Of a DNA stretch of 64,000 bases, positions 16,433 through 62,226 are shown piece by piece (position 1 is the first letter of the stretch; every line of letters begins with the position of its first letter). Source of the DNA: a virus. The notes under the pieces were generated by a model. The model was not told the origin of the DNA. It searched no databases and was given only the letters and a program-made list of their open reading frames with translations. The stretch covers positions 1 to 64,000 of the IMG/VR virus record IMGVR_UViG_3300025890_002165. The stretch is one strand, 5' to 3'. A program made the position numbers and the translations under genes.

Positions 16433-16807
16433 ATGGCAAGATATAAAGGTTTTAGTACAGTAGGACGCTACAAAAAGTTTAGAGCAGTTGATGTTGATTT
16501 AGTTAAACAGGACTTGCTCAATCACTTTAATATACGTAAAGGTGAAAAGCTAATGAACCCTGAGTTTGGTTCAATAGTTTGGAATTGCCTTTATGAGCCA
16601 ATTACCGATGAAATCAGAGGCCTAATCATCGAAGACGTAACAAAAATTGTTAGTTACGACCCACGTACAGCGGTTAGGAACATTATTGTTGATCAATACG
16701 ATACCGGAATTCAAATTGAAGTTGAAATAGACTTTATAACAACAAATCAGCAAGAAATTCTAACTGTTAACTTTGACCGCGATAGAGGTCTAGCCACCCA
16801 AACTTAA
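16433..16807 (+). CDS. 25: Baseplate wedge subunit gp25
   Basis: A 124-residue protein with the gp25 signature: LLNHFNIRKGEKLMNPEFGSI followed by VWNCLYEPITDEIRGLI and the C-terminal beta-strand part (IQIEVEIDFITTNQQEI). gp25 is the conserved core-bundle subunit that with gp6 and gp53 organises wedges and nucleates the sheath. Length fits T4 gp25 (132 residues). It precedes gp6, as is usual in contractile systems. Confidence 0.9.
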   Translation: MARYKGFSTVGRYKKFRAVDVDLVKQDLLNHFNIRKGEKLMNPEFGSIVWNCLYEPITDEIRGLIIEDVTKIVSYDPRTAVRNIIVDQYDTGIQIEVEIDFITTNQQEILTVNFDRDRGLATQT

Positions 16808-45398: not shown

Positions 45399-46805
45399 AT
45401 GAACAAGGGTGACGAATCCGTAGGTAATAAAAGTAAGTTTATGGCTAGTGCCGAGTTTATGAAAGATAATCTTGGCCACGGCTTGTGTTTAGCAAAATGG
45501 AAACAAGTAAGTTTTCATTTACCAACAGGGCTGAATAATAGTTGCTATCATCCTCCGTTGCATCAAATGGATCGCGAGAAAGTAAAACTCGATCCTAATG
45601 CATTGCACAATACAGAACACAAAAAAGAACAGCGTAAAATGATGCTCAAAGGTGAACGTCCTCCAGAGTGTCAGTATTGCTGGAACATTGAGGATTCAGG
45701 TAACCTAAGCGATAGACATTATCGCAGTGGAGAACCTTGGGCGGCCAGTGATTACGAAGCAATTAAAAACAGTACTGGTGACGAAGACTGGAAACCTAGT
45801 TACGTTGAAGTTAATTTTAATAATGCATGTAACTTGGCCTGTTCGTATTGCAGTCCACAATTTAGTAGCACATGGATGAAGGAAACTAAAAAAGTAGGAG
45901 CATATCCTACTAGTGTTCCGCATAATGCACCTGAACATTTTGTTGGGCGTAATAGACCAATTCCACACAGAGAAGAAAATCCATATGTTGATGCGTTTTG
46001 GGAATGGTGGCCCTCGTTATACCCACACCTAAAACATTTCCGTATGACTGGTGGTGAACCGTTGATGGATAACAATACATATCGTGTGTTTGATTATGTA
46101 CTAGCATTACCAAATCCAGAGTTACATCTAAATGTAACAAGCAACTTCAGTGTTGAAGATAAACTGTTTGAAAAGTATATTGGTTACGTAAAAAAGTTAT
46201 GTAAAACACAAATAGAACATTTTATGCAATATGTTAGCCTTGACACTGGTGTGCCAGAACAAGCAGAATATATTAGGCACGGACTTCAATGGACTCGTAT
46301 GCATCATAATGTATATAGGTATTTAGGAGAGGTGCCCGAGCGTAATAGTTTAACATTTATTATTACAATGAATAACTTGAGTGTGAGTGGAATTAAAAAG
46401 CAGTTAGAATGGATACTTGATTTACGTAAAGCGTTTAGTTCAACTTATCAGCGTATATGGTTTGATACACCATTGTTGCGTCAACCAACTTGGCAAAGTC
46501 TACAGATATTGCCATGGCCTTATGCTGAAAAATTAGAAGAAGTTGCAAATTGGATGGAACGAAACTTAGAAACCAAAGACGATCCATTCCACGGATTTAA
46601 AGATTATGAAGTACAGCGTATGCGTAGAGATATAGCGTGGATGCGTAAAGGAGATGAATTACCTGAACAATATTTGCAAAACAATCGTGCAGACTTTTAT
46701 AGGTTCTTTACTGAACACGATAAACGCAGAGACACAAACTTTTTAGCAACATTTCCTGAGATGGAAGAGTTTTGGAAACAGTGTAGATATTATGCTCAAA
46801 GATAA
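45399..46805 (+). CDS. Radical SAM protein, subfamily A (N-terminal Cys/His region)
   Basis: A 468-residue protein. The core motif is C144-NLA-C148-SY-C151 with GGEP at 218-221. The N-terminal region has C30, NSCYHPPLHQ around C49, the ALHNTEHKKEQR helix and C91-QY-C94. This NSCYHPP-type region replaces the PCC pattern of the other members and is shared with the 47876 gene, so these two form a subfamily. Substrate unknown. Its 3' end overlaps the next gene by 14 nt. It is the first of a run of five radical-SAM genes with overlapping ends. Confidence 0.85.
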   Translation: MNKGDESVGNKSKFMASAEFMKDNLGHGLCLAKWKQVSFHLPTGLNNSCYHPPLHQMDREKVKLDPNALHNTEHKKEQRKMMLKGERPPECQYCWNIEDSGNLSDRHYRSGEPWAASDYEAIKNSTGDEDWKPSYVEVNFNNACNLACSYCSPQFSSTWMKETKKVGAYPTSVPHNAPEHFVGRNRPIPHREENPYVDAFWEWWPSLYPHLKHFRMTGGEPLMDNNTYRVFDYVLALPNPELHLNVTSNFSVEDKLFEKYIGYVKKLCKTQIEHFMQYVSLDTGVPEQAEYIRHGLQWTRMHHNVYRYLGEVPERNSLTFIITMNNLSVSGIKKQLEWILDLRKAFSSTYQRIWFDTPLLRQPTWQSLQILPWPYAEKLEEVANWMERNLETKDDPFHGFKDYEVQRMRRDIAWMRKGDELPEQYLQNNRADFYRFFTEHDKRRDTNFLATFPEMEEFWKQCRYYAQR

Positions 46806-47883
46806 CGATAAATTTTGTGTGCGTCCGTTTATGCATAGTCTAGTAGACACCCAAGGACGTTTTATGCCTTGTTGTCGTAGTTTTGTTACAACAGATTTTA
46901 ATATGAAAACACACTCTGTTGACGAGTGGTGGAATAGCGATTATCTCAATGATCTAAGAAAGCGTATAAAGAACAATGAACACAGTGATGAATGTGTTCG
47001 TTGTTATAAACAAGAGGAGCAAGGATCAAAAAGTTTTCGACAGTACAGCAATGAACGTTGGAGTGACATAACAGAACAAACAGAACAGCCACTGGATTGG
47101 GAAATACAGTTATCAAATTTATGTAACTTGAAATGCTTGATGTGTAATCCGCAATCTAGTAGTCAATTTTTAGTTGAAGAAAACAAACTGTTTGACAAGG
47201 TATGGGATCAGAAGAAATACGATTGGAATGAAAAAGACAATTACAAGATACTTGAAATAATGGAACACTGTGATAGTTTTATTCTAAGAGGAGGCGAACC
47301 GTTTATGTTGCCTTGGGTTCGCGATATTCTTTCATCATTGACACAACGTAAAGAAATAATGATTGCAACAAATGGAACTAAATTTGATCAAAGTTGGGTT
47401 GATGTATTGTCAGCACACGACATTAAGATGTGTTTAAGTATTGACGGATATGCAGAACTTAATCATTACATAAGATATCCAAGTAAATGGAATGTTATAA
47501 CTAATAATATAGAGTTGATGCGTCAAATACCCGATGCTAATATTTTTGTAAACACAGTCGTACAAAATTTAAATGTATTATATATTGATAGATTATTAGA
47601 GTGGGCTGAACAGGAAGAGCTTTTTGTACAGTTTGATATATTAACAAAGCCTCATTATCTGGCACCTGTATGTTTGCCAAAAGAATTAGCTCAACTTGCA
47701 CAAGATAGACTTCGTGCTGTTGACTACGAAGCACAAAATGGTTTAGAAGGAATTATCAATACATTGGATAACTCCAATGAAGAAAACTGGAAAGAATTTT
47801 TAGATATGATTACTATTAGAGATAGACATCGTGGCACAAAGATAGTAAACTATATATCCGAAATGGAGGAACACTTTGCCTAA
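46792..47883 (+). CDS. Radical SAM protein, subfamily B
   Basis: At 363 residues this is the shortest subfamily B member. The N-terminal auxiliary region has C9-VRPF, MPCC (C27-C28), DEWWNSD and C68-VR-C71. The radical-SAM motif is C111-NLK-C115-LM-C118, followed by FILRGGEPFML and the strand motif KMCLSIDGY. Compared with its longer relatives it has shorter linkers but every core motif. It overlaps both neighbours (14 and 8 nt). Substrate unknown. Confidence 0.85.
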   Translation: MLKDNDKFCVRPFMHSLVDTQGRFMPCCRSFVTTDFNMKTHSVDEWWNSDYLNDLRKRIKNNEHSDECVRCYKQEEQGSKSFRQYSNERWSDITEQTEQPLDWEIQLSNLCNLKCLMCNPQSSSQFLVEENKLFDKVWDQKKYDWNEKDNYKILEIMEHCDSFILRGGEPFMLPWVRDILSSLTQRKEIMIATNGTKFDQSWVDVLSAHDIKMCLSIDGYAELNHYIRYPSKWNVITNNIELMRQIPDANIFVNTVVQNLNVLYIDRLLEWAEQEELFVQFDILTKPHYLAPVCLPKELAQLAQDRLRAVDYEAQNGLEGIINTLDNSNEENWKEFLDMITIRDRHRGTKIVNYISEMEEHFA

Positions 47884-49231
47884 GTTAGTTAATGAAACAG
47901 ATTTAGAATTTAGAAAAAGAATTCTTGATCCAAAGAGTGCAAGTTTTTGTGGAGCCAAATGGTATAATGCTACTATATGGTTAGGCAGTGGTATGACTAC
48001 AAGTTGTCATCATCCACCAGCACACAAAGTTGATGTTGATGAAGTTAAATTTAATCCAAGAGCATTGCACAACAGTTCACAAAAGAAACAAGATCGTGCT
48101 GATATGCTCACAGGTGTAAGGCCCAAAGGTTGCGAATACTGCTGGAAGATTGAAGATATTAAACGAGATAATATCAGTGATAGAGTTTACAAAAGTGTAA
48201 TCTACAGTGACAAATTATTACAAGATGCATACAATACACCTCCGGAAGATGATGTTAACTTGCGTACACTTGAAATTGCTTTTGATAGAACTTGTCAGTT
48301 TGCATGTAGTTATTGTAACCCAGCGTTCAGTACTACATGGGTTAAAGATATTAAAAAGAATGGAGCATATGCCGGTCTAGAAAGCGATGGTCGTAATCAC
48401 TTTACACATGAACACAACGAAGCAAGTTTGTACAAGTATTCCGAAACCAACCCATACGTTGAAGCATTTTTCAAATGGTGGGAAAGTGACTTGCACGAAA
48501 CATTACAAGAATTACGTATCACTGGCGGAGAGCCGTTGATGAGCGGTCACACATGGGACCTGTTTGATTGGTTTAAAGAAAACAAAGGTAAGTCAAAAAC
48601 TCGAATTGCTATTAACAGCAACTTGGGATTTGAAAGCGAAAAAGTTGAGAAATTGCTTGATGCGGCAGAACATCTTGAATTAGACTTATATACCAGCAAC
48701 GAGAGTATGGGTCTACAAGCCGAATATATACGTGATGGATTAGAATGGAAACAATGGACAGCAAACGTAGAGCTACTGATACGAAGTGGTAAACTACGAG
48801 GATTGCATGTAATGAATACCATTAATGCATTATGCTTAGAAAGTTTACCTGAGTTCTTAACGTGGATGCTAGAATGGAAATCAAAGTTTGGCAGAGACTT
48901 TCCAAACTTTACACTCAATATTTTACGCTTTCCAAGTTTCCAATCACCTCTTGTGTTACCTGACGAGATTAGGGAACATCACAAGCAAAGATTACAAGAT
49001 TGGTTATCTAATTTTCGTAACCATGCAATGTTACATGAACACGAAATTAATCATGTACAGCGTTTAATTGATTACTTAGATGTTGTTAAAACTCCACATA
49101 GAGAAACATTTGAAATGCCTAAACTTCACAACGATTTTAAACAATTTTATTCACAATACGACCAACGCAGAGGTAAAGACTTTACCGCTACGTTTCCAAC
49201 CTTAGCGGAGTGGTACAATGGACTCAAGTAA
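47876..49231 (+). CDS. Radical SAM protein, subfamily A
   Basis: A 451-residue protein starting at TTG 47876 behind a strong GGAGG ribosome site inside the previous gene. The N-terminal region has C25, TTSCHHPPAHK (C44), the RALHNSSQKKQDR helix and C86-EY-C89. The core motif is C140-QFA-C144-SY-C147, with TGGEPLMSG further on. It closely parallels the 45399 protein (SDRxYxS, NPYVxAFxxWW, LxELRITGGEPLM), so the A-B-A order suggests duplication of a gene pair. Confidence 0.85.
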   Translation: MPKLVNETDLEFRKRILDPKSASFCGAKWYNATIWLGSGMTTSCHHPPAHKVDVDEVKFNPRALHNSSQKKQDRADMLTGVRPKGCEYCWKIEDIKRDNISDRVYKSVIYSDKLLQDAYNTPPEDDVNLRTLEIAFDRTCQFACSYCNPAFSTTWVKDIKKNGAYAGLESDGRNHFTHEHNEASLYKYSETNPYVEAFFKWWESDLHETLQELRITGGEPLMSGHTWDLFDWFKENKGKSKTRIAINSNLGFESEKVEKLLDAAEHLELDLYTSNESMGLQAEYIRDGLEWKQWTANVELLIRSGKLRGLHVMNTINALCLESLPEFLTWMLEWKSKFGRDFPNFTLNILRFPSFQSPLVLPDEIREHHKQRLQDWLSNFRNHAMLHEHEINHVQRLIDYLDVVKTPHRETFEMPKLHNDFKQFYSQYDQRRGKDFTATFPTLAEWYNGLK

Positions 49232-50543
49232 AAAAGACTTTTATGAAAAATATGATTATAACGAAAGAACTCCGCACTTTGTCAAGCCTGAAGATTTAAC
49301 AGACAAGCAACTTAGCAGACTTGTCAAAGAGGATAACTTTTGTATGTTGCCTTGGGTTCACATGCATGCCTTTCCAGATGGTAGAGTGTATCCTTGTTGT
49401 TTAGGTGATTACTGGCATCCAATTGGAGACTTACGCAAAGACACAATGCGTGAAGTATGGAATCAAGATGCGTATAAAACAATGCGTAAAAACATGCTTG
49501 AAGACAAGCCATGTAAAGAATGTACTAAATGCTATGAACAAGAACAAAACGGTTTCTTTAGTATGCGAAATGATGCTAATAGAAACTACGGACATTTGAT
49601 CGAAGAAGTAAATCAAACAACAGAAGATGGCGAACATCCTGAGTTTAAGTTGCGTTATTGGGATATACGCTTCAGTAACCTATGTAACTTTAAATGCCGT
49701 TCTTGTGGTCCTATTTTTAGCAGTAACTGGTTCAACGATCATGTAAAACTGTACGGAAGAGTACCTGATGTGCTTAAAAGAGACATGGCCAGAGTAGAGT
49801 ACACAACTGGCGATGAAGACGGAATGCTGAATCAAATGGAAGAACATATTCCGTATTTAGAACAAGTATATTTTGCAGGTGGTGAACCTTTGATTATGAA
49901 GGAGCATTATTACTTGCTTGAGCGTTTAATTGAACTAGGCAAGACTGATGTGCGTTTGGTATACAATACAAACTTTAGTGAAATGCGTTACAAGAAAAAG
50001 CATGTATTTGATTATTGGAAACAGTTTAAAACAGTAAATGTTGGTGCTAGTCTTGATGGCATGGGTCCACAAGCAGAGCTAATACGCAAAGGTGCAGATT
50101 GGAAACAGACTGAAGAAAACAGAGTACGTATGATGGCTGAAGTGCCACATGTTGACTTTTATGTTAGTGCTACAGTCACTAGTCAAAACGTTTTACATGT
50201 ACTAGACTTTCACAAAGACTGGGTTGAAAAAGGGTTTATTCAACCACAGGATTTTAATGTTAATATTTGTCAAAGTCCTGAATGGTATCGTATTGATATT
50301 TTTCCAGAGAAGTTTAAAAAAGAAGTTATTGAACCTGCATATCGCAAACACATTGAATGGTTAGATCCACAAGATAAGTTACGTAGAGCAACAACAGGAT
50401 TTGAAAGTGCTATTAACTTTATGATGAGCAACGATGGATCAAAAGAATGGCCAAGGTTTGAAGAAGAAATTACAAAGTTAGATCGCATACGCAACGAAGA
50501 TTTTTGGAAAACATTTCCGGAGTTGGAGTCGGCACGTGGATAA
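49218..50543 (+). CDS. Radical SAM protein, subfamily B
   Basis: A 441-residue protein. An N-terminal 40-residue leader precedes C42-MLPWVHMH, YPCC (C60-C61), REVWNQ and C99/C102/C105. The core is C156-NFK-C160-RS-C163, then FAGGEPLIMKEHY and the strand VNVGASLDGMG. It resembles the 52260 protein most (RFSNLCNFKCR in both). It overlaps the upstream and downstream genes by 14 and 8 nt. Substrate unknown. Confidence 0.85.
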   Translation: MDSSKKDFYEKYDYNERTPHFVKPEDLTDKQLSRLVKEDNFCMLPWVHMHAFPDGRVYPCCLGDYWHPIGDLRKDTMREVWNQDAYKTMRKNMLEDKPCKECTKCYEQEQNGFFSMRNDANRNYGHLIEEVNQTTEDGEHPEFKLRYWDIRFSNLCNFKCRSCGPIFSSNWFNDHVKLYGRVPDVLKRDMARVEYTTGDEDGMLNQMEEHIPYLEQVYFAGGEPLIMKEHYYLLERLIELGKTDVRLVYNTNFSEMRYKKKHVFDYWKQFKTVNVGASLDGMGPQAELIRKGADWKQTEENRVRMMAEVPHVDFYVSATVTSQNVLHVLDFHKDWVEKGFIQPQDFNVNICQSPEWYRIDIFPEKFKKEVIEPAYRKHIEWLDPQDKLRRATTGFESAINFMMSNDGSKEWPRFEEEITKLDRIRNEDFWKTFPELESARG

Positions 50544-51759
50544 TAATTCCAAGACAATATGTATGTTACCTTGGGTTAGTATGGAAACAACACCAATGGG
50601 TACCAGTCGACCTTGTTGTTTAGCAATGGACGAAATTACAAAACCAGATGGTACAAAGTATGCACTACGAGAAAATACACTTGAAGAAATATATAAAAGC
50701 GAATACATGGTTGATTTACGTGAACAGTTTTTGCGTGGAGAAAAACCTAAAACATGTAGTCGCTGTTGGGATGAAGAAGATGCAGGACGCACAAGCAAAC
50801 GCATGAACACAGATGTGCGTTTCAAACATGAACGCCCGTTGATAGATTTTTCTGACACCAATCCTGACAGTTTATGGTTTATTGATCTAAAACTTGGAAA
50901 CATTTGTAATCTTAAATGTCGTATATGTGGAAGTTGGTCAAGCAGTAAATGGGCAAGAGAAGAAATTGATTATATACGCAAATACAAAAATAGAAATGCC
51001 AAGGATCATATTGCATACAAGTGGCTTAAAGATGGCAAGTGGCCTCGTGAGTCTGAAGTATTTTGGGAGAACATGATTGACTTACTGCCTAACATAAAAT
51101 ACTTTGAGTTTACAGGTGGTGAACCTTTTATGATCAAAGAACACTTTCAATTGCTACAACAAGCAGTTGACGGCGGCTTTGCAAAAGATATTGAAATACA
51201 TTACAATACCAACGGCACACAATATCCAGAAGAGTTTGTACATTTATGGAAAGAGTTTAAGTATGTTGAGATTGCATTTAGTATTGATAACGTAGGCAAA
51301 CGATTTGAGTACGAACGTTTTGGAGCTCGCTGGGACGAAGTATGCGAAAATATAAAACGTTTTAGAGACTTGCGTGATCAGAATAACAATATTAAGTTAC
51401 AGATTTGTTTAACTGTAAATATTCAGAATGTCTACTACTTGAAAGATTTATGTGACTGGATGCGTACACAGGACTTTGATTATCATCACTTTAATATGTT
51501 ACATGATCCGCGCCACCAAAACATTGGTGAAATGACAATAGAAGCAAAACAAATAGTAACCAATCGTTTAAAACAAGATCAATTTCATCCACACGATAAA
51601 AATGAAATTGATAAACTAATAAAGTTTATTGACAATGGACCTAGCAGTAATGGTAAAGACTTTGTTAGATTAATGAAACAAACAGATACATATCGTAAAG
51701 AAAACTTTTTAGAAACACATACACAAATAGCAAAGGCAATGGGTTACAGTGATACGTGA
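50536..51759 (+). CDS. Radical SAM protein, subfamily B
   Basis: A 407-residue protein starting with GTG at 50536. The auxiliary region has C9-MLPWVSM, RPCC (C27-C28), LEEIYKSEYM and C74-SR-C77. The core motif is C124-NLK-C128-RI-C131 and the strand motif is FTGGEPFMIKEHF. It is most like the 502-residue protein between gp46 and gp47 (IHYNTNG, VEIAFSIDNVGKRFEYERFG). It overlaps the oxygenase-like gene by 11 nt. Substrate unknown. Confidence 0.85.
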   Translation: MDNNSKTICMLPWVSMETTPMGTSRPCCLAMDEITKPDGTKYALRENTLEEIYKSEYMVDLREQFLRGEKPKTCSRCWDEEDAGRTSKRMNTDVRFKHERPLIDFSDTNPDSLWFIDLKLGNICNLKCRICGSWSSSKWAREEIDYIRKYKNRNAKDHIAYKWLKDGKWPRESEVFWENMIDLLPNIKYFEFTGGEPFMIKEHFQLLQQAVDGGFAKDIEIHYNTNGTQYPEEFVHLWKEFKYVEIAFSIDNVGKRFEYERFGARWDEVCENIKRFRDLRDQNNNIKLQICLTVNIQNVYYLKDLCDWMRTQDFDYHHFNMLHDPRHQNIGEMTIEAKQIVTNRLKQDQFHPHDKNEIDKLIKFIDNGPSSNGKDFVRLMKQTDTYRKENFLETHTQIAKAMGYSDT

Positions 51760-52258
51760 GGTACAACAAATATCCACAAACGGATACAAGTTAAAACACA
51801 ATATCCCCAATGGTGTTAAAAATAAGTTGTTTAATCATACAACGCAATTTGACCCTATTACTGAAACATGGCATCTTGGAGGCTACAGAGAGTTGTGGTG
51901 GTTAGATATTGATCGTGATAGTATTGTACGCAATGAAATAGCAGGTAGATTTTCTAGCCTTGATATTGACAAGCAAAAGGTGCGTGGTGTTGAAATATGG
52001 TTTGATCATGCTGGCTATGAAAACGCAATGCATACTGATGATCCTAATAGTGTTTGTAATATTATTATGTTGTACTTAGGAGAAGAAAGTAACAGTGAAT
52101 CAATGGGTACTTACTGGTATGAAAATGATATCAAGTACGAAGTTGACTATGAAGTAAATACTGGACTAATGTTATTAAATTCGCACACAATACAACACGG
52201 CATGAAAGGTAAAGTTCCTAACAATGTTATTCGAAAATCTTTATATGTAAATTTTTAA
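51749..52258 (+). CDS. 2-oxoglutarate/Fe(II) oxygenase-like protein
   Basis: A 169-residue protein from GTG 51749. The facial-triad pattern is H95-T-D97 (ENAMHTDDPN) and H150 (HTIQHGMKG), with R162 (VIRKSLYVNF) placed to bind 2-oxoglutarate. This fits the prolyl-4-hydroxylase-like branch of the cupin-fold oxygenases. It sits between two radical-SAM genes with overlapping or 1-nt spacing, so it probably hydroxylates the same substrate. Its need for oxygen contrasts with oxygen-sensitive radical-SAM enzymes in one operon. Confidence 0.7.
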   Translation: MIREVQQISTNGYKLKHNIPNGVKNKLFNHTTQFDPITETWHLGGYRELWWLDIDRDSIVRNEIAGRFSSLDIDKQKVRGVEIWFDHAGYENAMHTDDPNSVCNIIMLYLGEESNSESMGTYWYENDIKYEVDYEVNTGLMLLNSHTIQHGMKGKVPNNVIRKSLYVNF

Positions 52259-52259
52259 T

Positions 52260-53558
52260 ATGATAAAACCAGACAAAAAACCTGAAAATTTGTGTATGGC
52301 TCCGTGGACACATACCTACCTAAGTCCGCAAACAGAACGCAGACTTTGTTGTGCTAGTAGAGAACCAGCACAGAACTTTGAGCAGTATATTGATACAGAC
52401 TCAGGAACAGGTGAATATAAACCTACCACACTAGACGAACACTGGAACAGCGAACACATGAAAAGTGTTAGGCGTAGAATGATGTCTGGTGAAGAACTTA
52501 GTGAATGTGAAGTTTGTACTAACAAGTTATTAAACACAGATGTTTACAGAAGTTATTTTAATAACCTATTTGGACATAAATATGATAGTATATGGGATCA
52601 CACCGATCCTGATGGTACGACCCGTTTAAAGCCAGTTAGTTGGGATTATAGGTTTTCAAACCTATGCAACTTCAAATGTCGTATGTGTGGTGATATGCTC
52701 AGTTCAAGTTGGGAAGCCGAGCAACGTAAGCATAATATGATAAATTGGGAAGATCCTAAGAACAACTGGATGCGACCTAATCTCAAAAAACAAATAGAAA
52801 AATTTCAGTCAACTCAGATAGAACAGGAGTTTGCTGAAGCAGTTGAAAGTCACCGCGTAGAAGAAGTCTACTGGGTAGGTGGCGAACCTTTAATGTATGA
52901 ACAGCATTGGAGGTATATGAAGAGAATTATAGAGCTAGGAGATGGACCAAATGTTTATGCAAGATATAACACTAACTTATCTAGGATTAGTTATTCTGGC
53001 ACTAATCTTTATACTGATATTTTGGCTAGGCTACGTGATTGGCAAATATGTGCAAGCCTCGATGGCACGGGACGAATTGGAGAGTATATTCGAACAGGTC
53101 TCAATTTTGACCAGTGGCTTGAAAACTTCAATAAAGGAGTTGAGGTCAGCAACCACTCGCGCCAAATTCGTATTGACTTCACTCTTACCTTACCAGGACT
53201 CTTTGAAGTCCAAAAAATACAAGAACTCGCAAAAAGATTAGGTGTAGGAATACTTGCTAAAGTAATCTTTAGTTTTAGTCCTGACATTGTAATGTCGCCA
53301 TTGGCATTGCCTCGTAACCTGTTGGATAAATGGTTAGATGAACTTATTCCTTCAGTTGATGGTGCGTTAAAAGATGTGCTAGTACAACTAAAGAATAGAC
53401 CAACATTTGCAGAACAATGGCCAGATCAGTATGAAGCAGGACTACAAAAAGGCAAAGCACGTATATTAAAATTAGAACAAATTAGAACACAAGATCTGAC
53501 GATGACAGATATTCTATCTTCACGGCATGATATATTAGATTGGTGGTTAGAAATATGA
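52260..53558 (+). CDS. Radical SAM protein, subfamily B (contains an overlapping frame)
   Basis: A 432-residue protein. The auxiliary region has C12-MAPWTHTY, LCC (C30-C31), DEHWNSEHM and C83-EV-C86. The core motif is C136-NFK-C140-RM-C143, followed by WVGGEPLMYEQHW and QICASLDGTG. Between about 52942 and 53241 its codon choice differs from the rest of the gene: CTC, TCG, ACG, CGC and GTC codons, rare elsewhere in this AT-rich phage, become frequent. A second frame of 99 residues lies exactly there (see 52942-53241). Its TGA overlaps the next ATG (ATGA). Confidence 0.85.
   Translation: MIKPDKKPENLCMAPWTHTYLSPQTERRLCCASREPAQNFEQYIDTDSGTGEYKPTTLDEHWNSEHMKSVRRRMMSGEELSECEVCTNKLLNTDVYRSYFNNLFGHKYDSIWDHTDPDGTTRLKPVSWDYRFSNLCNFKCRMCGDMLSSSWEAEQRKHNMINWEDPKNNWMRPNLKKQIEKFQSTQIEQEFAEAVESHRVEEVYWVGGEPLMYEQHWRYMKRIIELGDGPNVYARYNTNLSRISYSGTNLYTDILARLRDWQICASLDGTGRIGEYIRTGLNFDQWLENFNKGVEVSNHSRQIRIDFTLTLPGLFEVQKIQELAKRLGVGILAKVIFSFSPDIVMSPLALPRNLLDKWLDELIPSVDGALKDVLVQLKNRPTFAEQWPDQYEAGLQKGKARILKLEQIRTQDLTMTDILSSRHDILDWWLEI
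52942..53241 (+). CDS. Candidate overprinted gene: small membrane protein inside a radical-SAM gene
   Basis: A 99-residue frame, +1 to the radical-SAM gene. The likely start is the ATG at 52951 (or 52942), because AGGAG (52936-52942 region) is about 8 nt ahead of it. The product has one clear membrane helix (LTYLGLVILALIFILIFWLG, then YVIGKYV) followed by a charged, probably helical tail (ARDELESIFEQVSILTSGLK) and a Lys-rich end. Host-gene codons here have unusual C at third positions, which are second positions in this frame, as expected under double coding. The layout is of a type-II or N-anchored inner-membrane protein such as a lysis or superinfection protein, but I recognise no family. 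Confidence 0.45.
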   Translation: MDQMFMQDITLTYLGLVILALIFILIFWLGYVIGKYVQASMARDELESIFEQVSILTSGLKTSIKELRSATTRAKFVLTSLLPYQDSLKSKKYKNSQKD

Positions 53559-54628
53559 CACGAGAAGTTAAAGTAGTATTAAGAAATCCAGTTAACAAAA
53601 GTAAAACAGTTGATTTTCATATTGACGTTGAGCAAACTATAATGGGACGTAACTGGCTAGGTGCATTAAATGGATTATTAATAAATGATTCCTACTTAGA
53701 AAAGAACTTTTTATTCTTGGGTTTTCCTAATACTGCTAGAGATATTAACTTCATATGTAAAGAGTTACAGTGGGTCAAAAATACTATCAATGATTTTTTT
53801 AACAAGGAGTATATAATAAGAGAAATATTTACACCAAAAACATTGAGAGATGGCATGAACCCAAATCAGGATATTATGAACAGATTGCATAATCATTTTG
53901 AAGTACTACAAGGTAGTGCATGGGGATTGAGTGACTGGTATAAAAAAGCAAATCACGAAACTAAGTTTGCTATTAGACAGTTAAACAATTTGTGTCACGA
54001 AGCAGAATCATTAATGCTGAGCCAGAAGAAACAAATTGAGGCACCGCAGTGGATGCGTCCGTCTCAGATCACAACATTTTTAAATGCTCCTAGATTTGAT
54101 TATCCCGACGAGCATAAGCGGACATTCAACAAGGAAAGATATGATCGTACCTTTGGTACTGTTTACCAACACTGGACTCAAGTAGGAAAAACATTATATG
54201 AAGTGTTCGTTGATGAAGGCGCACCTGATTTAACAGACGCAATGTGTGAAGAGATTACTCATTTGCGTTACTACAGTGGCGAGTTTGACATTGAATGGTC
54301 ACGTGATATTACCTATGCTGGTGAATATCCGTGGCACAAGCAACGAATGGATGAATATGCAGATTGGTTAGAGCGTAATGGTTTTAATCACAATGACACA
54401 CAATACAACTATGGATATCATTCAGTTGGACAAGTTGATCTAGTAGGTAGTTTTGGTACAGACAATCCTGAAACAGTGTGGGAGATCATTGGCGAACACT
54501 TAGACATTGTAAAAATTGAAACACTTGAGGCTTCATGTGATTTTGATTATTGCTGGACAGACAAGGATTATTATGACGTACAAATTGAAAGGTTAAAACC
54601 AGGTTATGATTATAGTAGCCGGGGGTGA
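53555..54628 (+). CDS. Hypothetical His/Asp/Trp-rich protein
   Basis: A 357-residue protein starting at ATG 53555, which overlaps the previous TGA; an in-frame start at 53540 would lengthen the overlap without a better ribosome site. I do not recognise it. It begins with a beta segment (EVKVVLRNPVNKSKTVDFHI), continues with helical stretches (RLHNHFEVLQGSAWGLSDWY, FAIRQLNNLCHEAESLMLSQ) and has an aromatic, His/Asp-rich second half (WSRDITYAGEYPWHKQRMDE, FDYCWTDKDYYD). The His and Asp content could mean metal binding, but no clear motif is visible. It overlaps the next gene by 23 nt. Confidence 0.65.
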   Translation: MTREVKVVLRNPVNKSKTVDFHIDVEQTIMGRNWLGALNGLLINDSYLEKNFLFLGFPNTARDINFICKELQWVKNTINDFFNKEYIIREIFTPKTLRDGMNPNQDIMNRLHNHFEVLQGSAWGLSDWYKKANHETKFAIRQLNNLCHEAESLMLSQKKQIEAPQWMRPSQITTFLNAPRFDYPDEHKRTFNKERYDRTFGTVYQHWTQVGKTLYEVFVDEGAPDLTDAMCEEITHLRYYSGEFDIEWSRDITYAGEYPWHKQRMDEYADWLERNGFNHNDTQYNYGYHSVGQVDLVGSFGTDNPETVWEIIGEHLDIVKIETLEASCDFDYCWTDKDYYDVQIERLKPGYDYSSRG

Positions 54629-55388
54629 TAGTTTTGTTGCAGGAAGTGAACTAGAACACTCTGATAATAATTTTACAAAGTTGGTTAGTCAACAATATAC
54701 CAATTATATAAATGTAGCAACACCTGGCAATAGCAACGAAGCAATCGCTAGACAAACAATTAATGCATTAGAGTCATTAACAAAAGATAAGTTTGCTATA
54801 GTTAGTTGGACATTTCCAGGACGCTATGAGTTTCGTTTCAATTACGATACCAAACAACGTACAGGGCATTGGTATTCAATTAACTCGTGGACAATTGAAA
54901 GTGACTTATCTTCAATTGAAAAAGAGTTCCATACCCAAGATGATGGTATTCTAACGGCTCAACAAGATACTATTAAAAGAGCAAACGAGACAGGTGTTGC
55001 TGGCTTTGCTCAAACATTCTATAAACATGTTGGTAGCAGTGAATACTGGGAAATATATAGCACACTAAAAGAAATAGTGTACTTACAAAACTACTTAAAA
55101 TCTAATAGTATTCCCTACATGTTTACCTGTGCTGACAACTGTATATTATACAATTATACAATAGAAAATGCCGATGTGTCAATCAAAACTTTGTACAATC
55201 TAATAGATATGAACAAATGGTTTTGGTTTCCAGAAGGAACAAAGAATGGTGAAACTCAGAACCCTAGAGGTTTTTACCAGTGGGCACTAGAGAATAAATA
55301 CAAGGTAGGCACTACACACCCCTTAGAAGATGCACATAAATCAGCCGCAAACCTAATGCAGGAGTTTTTCAATGATCAAATGGTTTAA
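54606..55388 (+). CDS. SGNH/GDSL hydrolase-like protein
   Basis: A 260-residue protein with an N-terminal GGDSFVAGSE, block I of SGNH hydrolases with Ser about residue 9. A VATPGNSNEAIARQ segment carries the Gly and Asn of blocks II and III, and a late THPLEDAH holds the catalytic His (DxxH is replaced by HPLEDAH). Such enzymes act as esterases or acetyltransferases on lipids and glycans. It overlaps the upstream gene and the next small gene. It differs from the 55473 and 62218 hydrolases, so three SGNH proteins lie in this region. The block assignment is by eye. Confidence 0.65.
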   Translation: MIIVAGGDSFVAGSELEHSDNNFTKLVSQQYTNYINVATPGNSNEAIARQTINALESLTKDKFAIVSWTFPGRYEFRFNYDTKQRTGHWYSINSWTIESDLSSIEKEFHTQDDGILTAQQDTIKRANETGVAGFAQTFYKHVGSSEYWEIYSTLKEIVYLQNYLKSNSIPYMFTCADNCILYNYTIENADVSIKTLYNLIDMNKWFWFPEGTKNGETQNPRGFYQWALENKYKVGTTHPLEDAHKSAANLMQEFFNDQMV

Positions 55389-55476
55389 GAGTTTAATTAA
55401 CCGTGTGAAATTAGAGATTGCATATCGCAAAAAACTTAAAGAATTACGCAAACGGGATCCGTTTATCTATAAATGA
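55372..55476 (+). CDS. Small basic protein, 34 residues
   Basis: Starts at ATG 55372 inside the end of the previous gene, with GGAG at 55361-55364 as ribosome site. The product is strongly basic and helical (MIKWFKSLINRVKLEIAYRK, then KELRKRDPFIYK), like an amphipathic membrane-surface helix. Its TGA overlaps the ATG of the next gene (ATGA). Position, ribosome site and coupling argue that it is real. It has no cysteine, which makes it a poor candidate for thioether-forming radical-SAM chemistry. Confidence 0.65.
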   Translation: MIKWFKSLINRVKLEIAYRKKLKELRKRDPFIYK

Positions 55477-56129
55477 GTAAACGTAGATTATTAACCGTTG
55501 GTGATAGTTTTACATATGGAGATGAACTTCCTAATAGAGAAGTTGATGCCTACCCATATCTAATGAAAAACTTATTGGGCTTTGACGAAGTAGTTAATCT
55601 AGGACTTTGCGGTGCTAGTTCTGATTATGTTTTTAGAACAACAATTGAAACTTTAATCAACGAAACATTTGATTTAGTATTAATAAGTTGGCCGGAACAA
55701 AGTCGTTTTGAAGCACTTGATTTACCAAATACAGAACCTTCGCAGTTCATGTCAATTCGTGCTCGAACACAAAAAGAACCAGACTGGATAACAGACTATT
55801 ATAAGTATAGTTATGATATCGCTTGGGGATTTCGAAAACAGTTTAATCAGATAATTGCATTGCAAGGATTTTTACTAAATCGTAATCAACGTTATCTAAT
55901 GTATAATGTAGCTGGTTTACAAGGTTACTATGACGAATACTATCAACTTCTTGAAGCTCAGTTTAGAGAAATTGATAAAAGATTCTTTGTTGGTTGGCCT
56001 AAAGACGGCATACTAGAATGGCAAGGAAATTGTGTTAAAGGTCCTGGAGGTCATCCTTTAGAACTTGGACACAAAAGAATAGCAAAGGTTATTGATGAGT
56101 ATATTAGGAATATCAGCTGGATTTCATGA
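55473..56129 (+). CDS. SGNH/GDSL hydrolase-like protein
   Basis: A 218-residue protein with clear SGNH blocks: VGDSFTYGDELP with Ser near residue 11, LGLCGASSDYVFRT with the block II Gly, and GGHPLELGHKRIAKVI near residue 200 with the catalytic His. Family members de-esterify or transfer acetyl groups on sugars and peptidoglycan. It is translated from an ATG inside the small basic gene's stop and ends within the start region of the carbamoyltransferase. Together with NodU-like carbamoylation this points to decoration of a glycan. Confidence 0.75.
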   Translation: MSKRRLLTVGDSFTYGDELPNREVDAYPYLMKNLLGFDEVVNLGLCGASSDYVFRTTIETLINETFDLVLISWPEQSRFEALDLPNTEPSQFMSIRARTQKEPDWITDYYKYSYDIAWGFRKQFNQIIALQGFLLNRNQRYLMYNVAGLQGYYDEYYQLLEAQFREIDKRFFVGWPKDGILEWQGNCVKGPGGHPLELGHKRIAKVIDEYIRNISWIS

Positions 56130-57576
56130 TGCGGCAGTAAGCGTTGTAGACGAACAAGGAAATATTTCATTTGCAAGTCATAGCGAAAGATATAGTAGAA
56201 ATAAAAATGATAAAGACTTATGTCGTGAGCTGTTGAGCGAAGTTGATTTTGACGATATTGATACTATTGCATACTACGAAGATCCAATTAAGAAACAAGT
56301 AAGACAGTGTTATGCAGGCCAAAAAATTGATTGGTCAAACATTACAGTAAGGCATGTATTAAAGAATCAAGGCGTTCCTTTTCAGTGTAACACTAAAATT
56401 CATAAGTATGATCATCACTTATCACATGCGGCCGCAGGGTTTCAAACATCACCATATGATGTTGCTACAGTAGTTGTAATAGATGCCATTGGCGAATTTA
56501 CAACCGCTAGTATATGGCGAGCAATGTATGATAACCAAGGCATTGCACGATACCGTCAAATATGGAAGCAAGGTTATCCTCATAGTTTGGGATTATTCTA
56601 TAGTGCAATGACAAAACATGTTGGTTTAAAGCCAATGGACGAAGAGTATATTTTTATGGGCATGGCCGCTTGGGGTGAGAATAAACATTTTGATACAATA
56701 TACAACGACTTTATTCTAAACTCACGAGACTTTACATTTAGACAAAATTGTCATGCTGGTATTGACGAAGATTATTTGCCAGGAGCATTGGATATTGATC
56801 TTGCGGCTAGTGTACAAGCTATAACTGAACACTTGGTAACTCGTTTATGCAATAGAGCAAGGCATAGTTTTTACAGCAACAACTTGGTATTAATGGGTGG
56901 TGTTGCTCTCAATTGTGTCGCTAATAGTAAAATTGATAGTTTTGATAATATTTGGATTATGCCTAACCCAGGTGATGCAGGTAGCAGTTTAGGTGCGGCG
57001 GCATTGAGTTATAAAAAGAAACTTAACTGGCAAGGTCCGTTTTTGGGCTGTGATATCCCGGGTGAATATCCAGTGGACCAATTACTTGATCTATTATTAG
57101 AAAAACAAATTGTAGGTGTAGCAAGTGGTCGTGCAGAGTTTGGACCACGAGCATTAGGCAATAGAAGTTTACTAGCAGATCCAAGAGGAGATGATATTAA
57201 AGATAGAGTAAACGAAATTAAACGTAGACAAAAGTTTAGGCCGTTTGCTCCAATGATATTAGAAGAACAAGCACAAGCATATTTTGATTTGCCCAAGGCT
57301 TGGGTTCATAGTCCGTATATGCAAAGTGTTGGAATATGTAAATCTCCAAAAAAGTTTCCTGCTATATGTCATGTTGACAATTCAAGCAGAGTACAAACTG
57401 TAGGTAAAGAGCCAGAGTTTAAACATATTAGAGAGATGTTAGAAAAATGGTTTATACTAACTGGATGCCCAATGTTACTAAACACCAGTTTAAATATCAG
57501 AGGTGAACCAATAGTAAACACTAGAGCTGATGCTGATCGTTTTGAAGATCAATACGGCATAGATGTTTGCAGTTAA
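56095..57576 (+). CDS. NodU/CmcH-family O-carbamoyltransferase
   Basis: A 493-residue protein from ATG 56095 (a TTG at 56092 precedes it). The N-terminal YrdC/ASKHA-like fold shows ILGISAGFHDAAVSVVDEQG, HHLSHAAAGF and VVVIDAIGEFT. The C-terminal part has AEFGPRALGNRSLLADPR and MLLNTSLNIRGEPIV, both hallmarks of NodU/CmcH/TobZ. These enzymes move carbamoyl from carbamoyl phosphate, through carbamoyl-AMP, onto a hydroxyl of a sugar or antibiotic. Catalytic motifs appear intact. It probably carbamoylates the product of the neighbouring sugar pathway. It is slightly shorter than typical members (about 550-600 residues). Confidence 0.9.
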   Translation: MSILGISAGFHDAAVSVVDEQGNISFASHSERYSRNKNDKDLCRELLSEVDFDDIDTIAYYEDPIKKQVRQCYAGQKIDWSNITVRHVLKNQGVPFQCNTKIHKYDHHLSHAAAGFQTSPYDVATVVVIDAIGEFTTASIWRAMYDNQGIARYRQIWKQGYPHSLGLFYSAMTKHVGLKPMDEEYIFMGMAAWGENKHFDTIYNDFILNSRDFTFRQNCHAGIDEDYLPGALDIDLAASVQAITEHLVTRLCNRARHSFYSNNLVLMGGVALNCVANSKIDSFDNIWIMPNPGDAGSSLGAAALSYKKKLNWQGPFLGCDIPGEYPVDQLLDLLLEKQIVGVASGRAEFGPRALGNRSLLADPRGDDIKDRVNEIKRRQKFRPFAPMILEEQAQAYFDLPKAWVHSPYMQSVGICKSPKKFPAICHVDNSSRVQTVGKEPEFKHIREMLEKWFILTGCPMLLNTSLNIRGEPIVNTRADADRFEDQYGIDVCS

Positions 57577-58505: not shown

Positions 58506-59576
58506 ATTGTGTTTTAATTCGTCCCACATAGAATTAAGAAAACATTGACTTTCAAACTTTTGTCTATTAGACTTTAGTGCAGGAGCCATATCTTTAAGCA
58601 TAGATTCTAATTCACTATGTGGCATTGCACAGATATCTTTAATAACTTTATTAACAGCCAACAAACGATCAACAGGGTCAACTATATTATCGTAACTTTC
58701 GTCCCACCAGTCATTGAACGTTTTAAATCCGTGACTTCTAAAGTATAACAAGTTACCCGGAGGACCAAGTAATACAAATGGCATTTCGCTGATTATAGGT
58801 TTGAATATCTTTTCTGTTAAGTGACATTTGTTAGTCCAAAATTCAGTCTCTGTAACAACAAACAAGAAACTTTCCATGCATTGTTTAACTGCACTAAGTA
58901 CCATACTTCCGTTTGGTATATGACTCAATGATTCTGTATCAATACGTAACTCTTCTAAATCTTTTAGTTCGTTTTTAGCCCAGGTAAAATCATACTTGTA
59001 AGTATCTTCTGCCCAATCAAGTTGTTTAATGTTGTTTCCGTGTTCTGGACAATCAACACTATAACTGATATTTCCGTGTTGTAATAGATTGTTGCGTTTT
59101 AAATCAGCAACGTGCAAACTACGATAACTTCTAGCATTACCTGTAATTCGGTTAAATGTAATAAATTTCTTCTTGACTTTTCGATCAACTGGTGCTATAA
59201 TATCTGGACAGTATTGATAACCGCGGAACCAATCATGTGCGGCAAATACATGATAAAAGTAATAGCAATCTTCAAAGCCGTACTTGTCGTTGAAATAGTT
59301 TTTTGACTCACTGTGGTATTCAGTGTTAAGTAATATTATACGTCTATTAGGCCATGAGTCTCTAACGTAATCAAATAACGGATCATTGTAACCTGGAATA
59401 AGAGGTTCTTGATCATAGCAAAACAATACAGGGCCATCGTCGCCACTGTTTAACCATTCGAGGCTTTCAACAGTGCTAGAACCAAAAGGAAACGGATATA
59501 CTAACACAACACCTTCGGGCCAATGTTGGTTTGCTAACGCGAAGATGTTTTCATAATGAGAGTGAATATTATACAT
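58494..59576 (-). CDS. Glycosyltransferase-like protein (GT10/exostosin-type look)
   Basis: A 360-residue protein. The C-terminal half has a segment typical of phage and bacterial glycosyltransferases: FVVTETEFWTNKCHLTEKIF, then KPIISEMPFVLLGPPGNLLY and HGFKTFNDWWDESYDNI. The HLTEKIFKP part is like the nucleotide-sugar site of GT10 fucosyltransferases. The N-terminal half (DDGPVLFCYDQEPLIPGYND) may bind the acceptor. It is divergent from the 883-residue gene, and the two start codons share CATG at 59574-59577. A TATAAATA on its strand lies about 107 nt upstream. Exact donor unknown. Confidence 0.6.
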   Translation of the reverse strand: MYNIHSHYENIFALANQHWPEGVVLVYPFPFGSSTVESLEWLNSGDDGPVLFCYDQEPLIPGYNDPLFDYVRDSWPNRRIILLNTEYHSESKNYFNDKYGFEDCYYFYHVFAAHDWFRGYQYCPDIIAPVDRKVKKKFITFNRITGNARSYRSLHVADLKRNNLLQHGNISYSVDCPEHGNNIKQLDWAEDTYKYDFTWAKNELKDLEELRIDTESLSHIPNGSMVLSAVKQCMESFLFVVTETEFWTNKCHLTEKIFKPIISEMPFVLLGPPGNLLYFRSHGFKTFNDWWDESYDNIVDPVDRLLAVNKVIKDICAMPHSELESMLKDMAPALKSNRQKFESQCFLNSMWDELKHNLFK

Positions 59577-62226
59577 GTTTGATGTTTTTTACTTTGGCCC
59601 TAAGCCTGGTTTATTTGAGTTTGAGAAGCCTGCTTCAAGTTTAACTGAAGCTATCAAACTAAGTCGTACTAGGTATTGTTTCTATTTATATGGCGGTAAT
59701 GACTACTCAAACTTTAACTTTCATGTGGTTCCAGAGCCTTGGATGGAAAAGTATGTACATTGTTGGGCCAGCCAATGGCAACGTGATGGCGAAGTATATC
59801 TTGTGAGTAAACGTATACAAGAAATGCAATACCATTTCTGCACAGATCAAACTGTAACACGTTTGTCAGACAAATCAAAATTTATTAATACTGAATATAC
59901 AGAAAATTTTGATTATAGTTGGCATCCTGATCCACATGAACCTGACTACAGTTATTACTTTCCTACACAACACCAAAGTGCAGGAGGTCCTGTGTATTCT
60001 GGCACTGCTGGAGTTAAGTTAGTTGATGCACAAATAGCAACAGCATTTCCAGTATTAGATAATTGGCATATTCCCAATGACATGTCAATTGATACCAGTT
60101 GGCATCCTAACATATTAGATCCAGAATACACATACCATTTTCCTACTAAGTGGCAAAGTGCAGGTGGCATTACATACGGAATGGGTGAACAAATTAAAAT
60201 TGCAGACTTTATAAGTACGCAAGACGAAAGCAAAGAATGTTGGACAATACCCGACGATGTTGATGAATCAACAGTTGACTTTACATGGAAACCCAATGTA
60301 CTTGATCCTCCGTACATATACCATTTTCCAATTGGTGATATACAATCAAGCGGATTGATGTACACTGTTGAAGGTGCTACAGAAGTTAAATTGATGGATT
60401 ATTTTCCAGGACACGACATTGGCACCTTCAAAGAAATAGATGTATTTTACGTAGATAAAAACAATAGTTTAGCTAAGGCAAGGTACGAAAAACTACTAGA
60501 AAAGTACCCTGGAATGCAAAAGATTCGCTACGCCAACTCAATGTTGGAAACAGTACGCAGATGTGTTAGTCGTAGTAGTACCAATAGATTTTGGATTATT
60601 AGTAGCGAAAATGTATATGATGAATTTGATTTTGATTGGCGTCCTGAGAGTTGGCAAAGTTATATGACTCATGTGTTTGGTAGCCAATGGCAAAAATGGA
60701 GTGATACTTTTTTAATTAACAAGTTTGAATTTCAACGATCAAGTCAATGGGCCAACTCCATAACGGAGTTTCCAAATTTAAATTTTGTTAAAGAACAATC
60801 TGTTACTGTACCTGATGATCTACATGCTATTGTATATGTTGATTGGGGTAATGAACAAAGTCAAGTTCAACTTGACAAACTGCAAAGTCAACACAATAAT
60901 ATAACTGTTACACGTTTTGTTGACAACTATCTGGATACATTCAAAAGAATTATTAACAACCACGAAGGACATGAATACATTTGGATCATCAACAGTATTT
61001 GTGACTATGCTCGTTTTGATTTTAGTTGGCAACCTGAGCCTTGGCAAAACGAAATGATACACGTATTTCCTAGTAACGGACAAAAACGAGGAGATACTTT
61101 TTATATACACGTTGAGAGTTTTAAAACTCAGATGTATGATTTAGAAATACTGGATTGGTTCAACGTTATTAATTATACATTAGAACAAGAACTAAAAAGA
61201 TGGCCAATGCCTGTTGTTGAATACACCACTGATAACATGGTTGATACAATTAACAATTATGTTTGGTCCAATTTTCCATATGCCGTTTTTCAGAAACAAG
61301 ATAATCTATTACCTAACATGGGGGCATCAATACGTTACACTTCCGAAGTATATGGTGCTATATGTTTGTGGAGGCAAAAAGACCGTGAGGTTGTAAGTTT
61401 AACCAGCGACAATAGCTTGGCTGTTATACCTCGTGATATTAGTAAACGTCAAATTGAACAGGTATATGACTTTCCTTATATTAATAAAAAGTCTCCGGGA
61501 CGTTCTGATTTTATACCACGACCATTGGATATATGTTTTATCAGTAACGGCGAGACTGAAGCAAATCGTTGGTACACACATCTAATAGATGTAGCAATTA
61601 CAAAAGATCCAGCAGGAGCATTAGAACATAAGAATACAATACATCACATTGAAGGTATTGATGGTCGTGTAAAAGCATACCAAGCCGCGGCCCATGCATC
61701 AAACACTGAATGGTTCTTTGCAGTGTTTGCTAAAATTGAAGTAGAACGAGACTTTGATTTTACTTGGCAACCAGACTATTTCCAACAAGCAAAGCACTAT
61801 ATTTTTAATGCACGTAATCCAGTAAACGGATTAGAATACGGACACATGGGGGTTATAGCTTATAATAAGCGTCTTACACTAGCCACAAACCAACCAGGAC
61901 TGGACTTTACACTGAGTGCTCCACATGAAGTTGTACCAGTTCTTAGCGGCACTGCTCATTACAATACAGACCCGTGGATGACTTGGCGTACAGCATTTCG
62001 TGAAGTATTGAAACTGAAACAGTTTGATGACATAAACCCTAGTATTGAAAATGAAGCTAGACTTACTTCTTGGCTAACAAAAGGTCGAGATAGTTTGAAT
62101 GGTGTTTATAGTATACAAGGTGCAAGTGATGCACTTAGATATTATGAAGAAGTAGATGGTGATCCTATAGAGCTACAAAAGAGTTTTGATTGGGCGTGGC
62201 TCAAAGAAAAGTTTGAGTCAAGTTAG
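59575..62226 (+). CDS. Large repeat protein with degenerate glycosyltransferase-like modules
   Basis: An 883-residue protein built from about seven copies of one module. Each has an FDFxWxPEPWQ core followed by a HVFPSxxQxxGDTFYI strand. Copies start near residues 46, 112, 173, 235, 350, 481 and 727 (FDFDWRPESWQ, FDFSWQPEPWQ, FDFTWQPDYFQ). The C-terminal ~230 residues match the 310-residue protein at 44162 (WMTWRTAFREVLKL with HAWRAGFREGVKM; GRDSLNGVY with GRDVEHGEEAINGARY) but lack its DGD site. It may be a scaffold, lectin-like or inactive transferase partner for sugar transfer. There is no signal peptide. It overlaps the convergent SGNH gene by 9 nt. Confidence 0.65.
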   Translation: MFDVFYFGPKPGLFEFEKPASSLTEAIKLSRTRYCFYLYGGNDYSNFNFHVVPEPWMEKYVHCWASQWQRDGEVYLVSKRIQEMQYHFCTDQTVTRLSDKSKFINTEYTENFDYSWHPDPHEPDYSYYFPTQHQSAGGPVYSGTAGVKLVDAQIATAFPVLDNWHIPNDMSIDTSWHPNILDPEYTYHFPTKWQSAGGITYGMGEQIKIADFISTQDESKECWTIPDDVDESTVDFTWKPNVLDPPYIYHFPIGDIQSSGLMYTVEGATEVKLMDYFPGHDIGTFKEIDVFYVDKNNSLAKARYEKLLEKYPGMQKIRYANSMLETVRRCVSRSSTNRFWIISSENVYDEFDFDWRPESWQSYMTHVFGSQWQKWSDTFLINKFEFQRSSQWANSITEFPNLNFVKEQSVTVPDDLHAIVYVDWGNEQSQVQLDKLQSQHNNITVTRFVDNYLDTFKRIINNHEGHEYIWIINSICDYARFDFSWQPEPWQNEMIHVFPSNGQKRGDTFYIHVESFKTQMYDLEILDWFNVINYTLEQELKRWPMPVVEYTTDNMVDTINNYVWSNFPYAVFQKQDNLLPNMGASIRYTSEVYGAICLWRQKDREVVSLTSDNSLAVIPRDISKRQIEQVYDFPYINKKSPGRSDFIPRPLDICFISNGETEANRWYTHLIDVAITKDPAGALEHKNTIHHIEGIDGRVKAYQAAAHASNTEWFFAVFAKIEVERDFDFTWQPDYFQQAKHYIFNARNPVNGLEYGHMGVIAYNKRLTLATNQPGLDFTLSAPHEVVPVLSGTAHYNTDPWMTWRTAFREVLKLKQFDDINPSIENEARLTSWLTKGRDSLNGVYSIQGASDALRYYEEVDGDPIELQKSFDWAWLKEKFESS
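59683..59690 (-). promoter_or_regulatory. Possible T4-type late promoter (TATAAATA, minus strand)
   Basis: A perfect T4 late-promoter octamer on the minus strand lies inside the 883-residue gene, about 107 nt before the start of the leftward glycosyltransferase-like gene. There is no intergenic space for a promoter, so an internal one is needed. It could still be a chance match in AT-rich coding DNA. Confidence 0.35.

Follow-up and report, generated by a model that had tools for sequence, protein, structure and literature searches.

The lysis gene E of phiX174, which lies inside gene D, and the lysis gene of MS2 encode overprinted proteins with a single transmembrane (TM) segment and start within another gene. 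Overprinting is best known in small genomes under packing pressure. Gene finders usually discard same-strand embedded frames and, as a result, such genes remain unannotated in viral contigs. In lambda and T7, the o-spanin gene Rz1 is embedded in the i-spanin gene Rz, in the +1 frame in tested cases (PMC6139136), and Pseudomonas phage Fc02 has the overlapping exclusion genes olg1 and olg2, for which exclusion activity was tested (PMC9936078). Overlap between phage genes is itself a known phenomenon, and the family described here seems undescribed; literature searches, whose coverage of subscription papers and preprints is thin, returned no description of it. The evidence below points with high confidence to a selected overlapping gene in the +1 frame of a phage radical-SAM/SPASM gene and to its predicted membrane-anchored product.

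The window (the whole stretch of DNA analyzed, 64,000 nt) is part of IMGVR_UViG_3300025890_002165, a 71.9-kb virus record that is a fragment. With genes for baseplate wedge proteins at 16433 and 16873, the source phage is T4-like. The features of the locus are as follows.

52260..53558, + strand: carrier (host) gene, encoding a radical-SAM/SPASM protein of 432 aa (Pfam domains, viral homologues)
52936..52938, + strand: TAG, a stop codon of the alternative frame, a short way 5' of the start (sequence)
52937..52941, + strand: AGGAG, Shine-Dalgarno-like (sequence)
52942..53241, + strand: maximal +1 ORF of 99 aa (ORF listing; +1 frame of the carrier gene)
52951..53241, + strand: overlapping gene of 96 aa, with the likeliest start at ATG 52951 and a TGA stop at 53239-53241
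52978..53043, + strand: predicted transmembrane helix, residues ~10-31 (hydrophobicity versus synonymous shuffles)
53068..53163, + strand: predicted coiled-coil tail, residues ~40-71 (hydrophobic heptad pattern)

In a Pfam search, the carrier protein exceeds the cut-offs for both Radical_SAM (8e-9) and SPASM (1.6e-5). Viruses supply >100 unique homologues, most of them 65-80% identical, and the protein is of the same kind as phage radical-SAM/SPASM proteins (PHROG 14086). Among INPHARED phages, carrier homologues are only 23% identical and occur in two Vibrio phages, and the alternative protein has no match. Radical-SAM cassettes are reported for pelagimyophages, and the passages of that report consulted, like a literature search, describe no overlapping gene in phage radical-SAM/SPASM genes (PMC7029224). 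In the window, positions 45399-57576 hold a conserved cassette. It comprises several radical-SAM/SPASM genes together with a NodU-like carbamoyltransferase gene (56092), a gene at 53540 for an unknown protein of 362 aa, and others for GDSL-like and unknown proteins. Of 80 relatives, every one has the 53540 gene beside the carrier gene, and 75 have the carbamoyltransferase there.

The +1 ORF at 52942-53241 (+, 99 aa) is present in the carrier gene as the sequence-only reading had claimed. When codons are shuffled among synonymous sites within each gene, leaving protein and codon usage unchanged, none of 3,000 shuffles of the window's carrier gene keeps 99 codons open, and among the 210 gene-frames of the window none is more surprising than this ORF, which shares the top rank (P 0.0033, the floor for 300 shuffles). 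The frame tied with it as least expected, at the same floor of P 0.0033, is a 147-codon stop-free antisense frame in an 883-aa gene at 59575-62226. An earlier observation that the interval is enriched in the rare codons CTC, TCG, ACG, CGC, and GTC also holds (9 of 100 codons inside versus 8 of 332 outside; Fisher P = 0.006), and we infer that these codons are largely the expected product of avoiding +1 stops (NTA or NTG before A or G).

Across homologues, the frame is open far more often than the carrier protein would dictate. We gathered 143 unique homologues, nearly all via the carrier protein, and analyzed the 137 with >60% identity. At carrier codons 228-270, 16 +1 stops are observed versus 260 expected from synonymous shuffles (ratio of 0.06), and 126 of 137 homologues are free of +1 stops versus 13.8 expected, although the shuffle and binomial figures take no account of shared ancestry. 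Observed and expected stops are 73 versus 228 at codons 271-300 and 180 versus 340 at codons 301-327, with ratios of 0.89-1.18 in the upstream and downstream flanks. An earlier proposed check, whether relatives keep the second frame open, has a favorable outcome in this wider set and in the close relatives L004, L087, L093, and L089. In 60 of the 137 homologues the frame ends before codon 320, with 14 of these ending by codon 273, so the overlapping gene is dispensable in some lineages. Stops are also partly depleted in the antisense -0 frame at codons 228-327 (0.52-0.58), which probably follows from the +1 gene through avoidance of TTA, CTA, and TCA, and they are depleted in the antisense -2 frame at codons 301-380.

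Synonymous change in the carrier frame was compared in phylogenetically independent pairs, within classes set by the position of the +1 stop. In the long class (77 sequences, 36 independent pairs), the observed/expected ratio is 0.72-0.77 at codons 228-270 and 0.46, 0.47, and 0.53 at codons 271-286, 288-302, and 303-326, respectively (z of about -9 to -11). Reduced synonymous change had been proposed as a check on the second frame; among lineages whose open frame is long, it is found (0.46-0.77) over exactly the interval in question. In the short class (stop at codons 281-288), ratios are 0.66-0.85 up to codon 286, then 1.18 and 1.00. In the very short class (stop by codon 273), ratios are 0.86-1.09 throughout, with no clear constraint. 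The mid class (stop at codons 294-309) has a ratio of 0.72 at codons 303-326, i.e., 3' of its own stop. In each clade, constraint ends about where its own +1 stop falls, and the more distant relatives, in which stops are present and constraint is gone downstream or throughout, support the overlapping-gene reading. Local recombination is rejected as a cause of the similarity because amino acid divergence is not reduced in the interval. Within the short class, the alternative protein of 19 homologues stops at carrier codon 287, and the group is scattered over several tree branches; in six members of the class (L022, L027, L048, L231, L289, and L317) the last residue of the alternative protein is Phe (WPGPYF, FPIHYF, and similar).

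Synonymous constraint by itself cannot separate RNA from protein, and a conserved structure or regulatory element in the radical-SAM mRNA could suppress synonymous change and leave the open frame as a by-product. However, stop depletion is strongest in the +1 frame (0.06), whereas over the same interval stops are enriched in the +2 frame (1.34) and in one antisense frame, -1 (1.69). Constraint also tracks the +1 stop of each clade, and the +1 product has the hydrophobicity and heptad pattern described below. With a fold z of -0.83 and frame-specific stop depletion, RNA structure is largely refuted as the cause, and we reject this extremely improbable alternative in favor of an overlapping gene.

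Two further scans with the carrier protein provided a hold-out of 38 unseen main-family genes, each <97% identical to the first set. In the hold-out, 30 +1 stops are found at codons 228-270 versus 76.5 expected, and the long class has synonymous ratios of 0.51 and 0.59 at codons 288-302 and 303-326. A sister clade of 17 sequences (including L318; ~56% identity) has +1 stops by codon 245 in all 17, and synonymous ratios at the same codons (1.05, 0.98, 1.10, and 1.07) reveal no constraint. The earlier reading of an overlapping gene is supported by stops, synonymous change, and the contrast with the sister clade.

Differences were also classed by their effect in both frames, following the idea of OLGenie, in which NN/NS below 1 indicates purifying selection in the second frame (PMC7531306). 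In this simplified count, made without bootstrap intervals, NN/NS is 0.69 and SN/SS is 0.35 for the long class at codons 230-326, versus 1.01 and 0.87 in the upstream flank and 0.97 and 0.83 in the downstream flank. Purifying selection on the second frame is evident at the level of sequence. For the mid class 3' of its stop, NN/NS and SN/SS are flank-like (0.83 and 0.82), and several mid lineages nest among long ones in the tree; the residual synonymous constraint of this class is likely due to recent truncation.

A chance ORF, generated by codon bias and the amino acid composition of the carrier, would be in keeping with an AT-rich genome, with the further long spurious frames in the window, and with NNT codons that yield hydrophobic +1 residues. 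Nevertheless, the shuffles hold carrier protein and codon usage fixed and still predict 13.8 stop-free homologues rather than 126, none of the 3,000 leaves the frame of the window gene open, and the counts of selection in the second frame are at odds with chance. The hold-out and the sister-clade control refute this explanation, which we regard as vanishingly unlikely.

The +1 frame is broken in bacterial-MAG homologues as well as in the sister clade, and for this reason the simplest history is probably one of overprinting: the gene would have been born on an older enzyme gene and then several times shortened or lost while the enzyme was retained. Basal branches of the tree are poorly supported. 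The intact, shortened, and absent frames, together with a sister clade lacking the gene, form a natural series on the birth and loss of a protein.

The start of the gene is likely ATG 52951 rather than ATG 52942, the start of the ORF first noted; ATG 52942 and ATG 52957 may be alternatives. Read in the +1 frame from 52936, the sequence is TAG GAG ATG GAC CAA ATG TTT ATG. The AGGAG, described earlier as well placed, is so for ATG 52951 (9-nt spacer) and not for ATG 52942, which it abuts (0-nt spacer). Two of the closest relatives (L004 and L089) have lost the first ATG and retained the second. Where carrier codon 231 is Asn, homologues use AAT 73 times and AAC once (background of 0.57 and 0.43), a choice that keeps ATG 52951. 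The spacer, the retained AAT, and the relatives missing the first ATG are the reasons for preferring this start. Where codon 231 is Arg, it is CGT, giving a GTG start, in 16 of 31 cases. Carrier Gly227 is encoded by GGA in 89 of 131 homologues (background of 0.26). We dropped codon choice at the Shine-Dalgarno-like motif as proof because the sister clade, which lacks the overlapping gene, makes the same choice (GGA in 15 of 17 at codon 227, with AGA/AGG preferred at codon 235), and it is not diagnostic alone.

In an alternative reading, ribosomes would frameshift into +1 and produce a truncated enzyme fused to a membrane segment, without internal initiation; the overlap is same-strand and +1, and the stop just upstream might conceivably be the sign of a shift site. 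But codons 201-226, just upstream, show no synonymous constraint (observed/expected ratio of 1.02), and the position of the start codon is conserved (AAT 73:1). Every homologue has a +1 stop at most ~32 codons 5', and in 86 of 137 the nearest one is at carrier codon 226, making fusion with upstream sequence in the alternative frame unlikely. Frameshifting is accordingly very unlikely, and internal initiation is the favored reading. Under the latter, ribosomes would initiate at ATG 52951 via the AGGAG at 52937-52941, independently of the enzyme, as the anatomy suggests, and a 96-aa protein would be translated.

A short N-terminus, a single helix spanning the membrane, and an alpha-helical tail are predicted for the product; the tail may self-associate as a coiled coil. 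Both the strong membrane helix and the charged helical tail of the sequence-only reading are recovered: the best 19-residue KD mean is 2.86, the charge of the tail is above the null, and an AlphaFold2 model is one long helix (pLDDT of 74, pTM of 0.31). TM hydrophobicity exceeds the synonymous-shuffle mean in all 77 of 77 long-class homologues (mean of 2.12 versus 0.77), and relative to the null the membrane segment is poorer in polar residues and the tail richer in charge. In the tail, hydrophobic residues recur with a period of 3.51, with a/d positions at 43, 47, 50, 54, 57, 61, 64, and 68. Mean KD is 2.91 at a/d positions versus -1.01 elsewhere (null of 0.30 and -0.05), a contrast whose size is partly circular because the positions were chosen on the same alignment, the period being less so. 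The TM helix and heptad tail exceed what the carrier protein forces, and we have good confidence in the product as a membrane-anchored coiled coil. All 61 aligned members share Gly56. Searches of Pfam, PHROGs, PDB, and BFVD gave no usable match for the alternative protein, only a few weak ones, mostly to helical or coiled-coil families. No stand-alone copy of the gene was found, as 80 of 80 matches to the alternative protein sit with the carrier gene.

Flanking charges (K/R of 0.13 in the N-flank and 2.03 in the C-flank) hint, by the positive-inside rule, at an N-out/C-in topology in which the tail would face the cytoplasm. This would be the opposite of the N-in/C-out topology of i-spanins, which otherwise share the predicted architecture of an N-terminal TM segment followed by a (periplasmic) coiled coil. 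Single members of the 61 aligned weakly match two Rz-like spanin PHROGs (E of 0.003 and 0.009), but other coiled-coil families match equally weakly, the window protein itself has no match to a spanin family, and in one class the tail is only ~27 aa. No o-spanin or lysis cassette was recognized nearby, and no o-spanin lipoprotein gene was noticed on inspection of the neighboring ORFs. An i-spanin-like lysis component is therefore unlikely, and the earlier suggestion of a role in lysis is without direct support. The 71.9-kb record, itself a fragment, has no Phage_lysozyme (endolysin) match. In the phage record, outside the window, a gene at L334 4429-5298 (-) encodes a protein of 289 aa whose N-terminus is lipobox-like and whose sequence, read by eye, is apparently that of an alpha/beta-hydrolase.

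The location of the gene inside a conserved cassette and the predicted cytoplasmic coiled coil are compatible with a product that tethers the cassette's radical-SAM and carbamoyltransferase enzymes to the membrane. We consider this doubtful, given that the gene is lost or truncated in lineages that retain the cassette. Somewhat ahead of it, and still tentative, we suggest an accessory inner-membrane protein that would alter the host envelope during infection, through lysis timing or superinfection exclusion; any assignment as an envelope protein in lysis control, exclusion, or a spanin-like role is a guess. The locus offers a concrete small membrane protein for testing effects on the host envelope.

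Taken together, the findings probably define an undescribed family of membrane-anchored coiled-coil proteins, overprinted on a radical-SAM gene, selected across a large group of uncultured T4-like phages, and missed by annotation, with clade-specific shortening and loss that make birth and decay traceable. Like olg1 and olg2 of Fc02, the gene belongs to a dsDNA phage and would encode a small protein from an alternative frame, but phage, context, and sequence differ. As with Rz/Rz1, a small, predicted membrane-associated protein is encoded wholly within another phage gene; there the carrier is a lysis gene, and in the present case it encodes a radical-SAM enzyme, with no lipobox, no recognized lysis cassette, and no sequence relation. 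The predicted product resembles phiX174 E and the MS2 lysis protein in being a single-TM protein overprinted with its start inside another gene, and differs in its longer coiled-coil tail. In contrast to the tiny genomes of phiX174 and MS2, which are under packing pressure, the phages here are T4-like dsDNA phages with contigs of up to ~370 kb, and the overprinting lies in a nonstructural enzyme gene.
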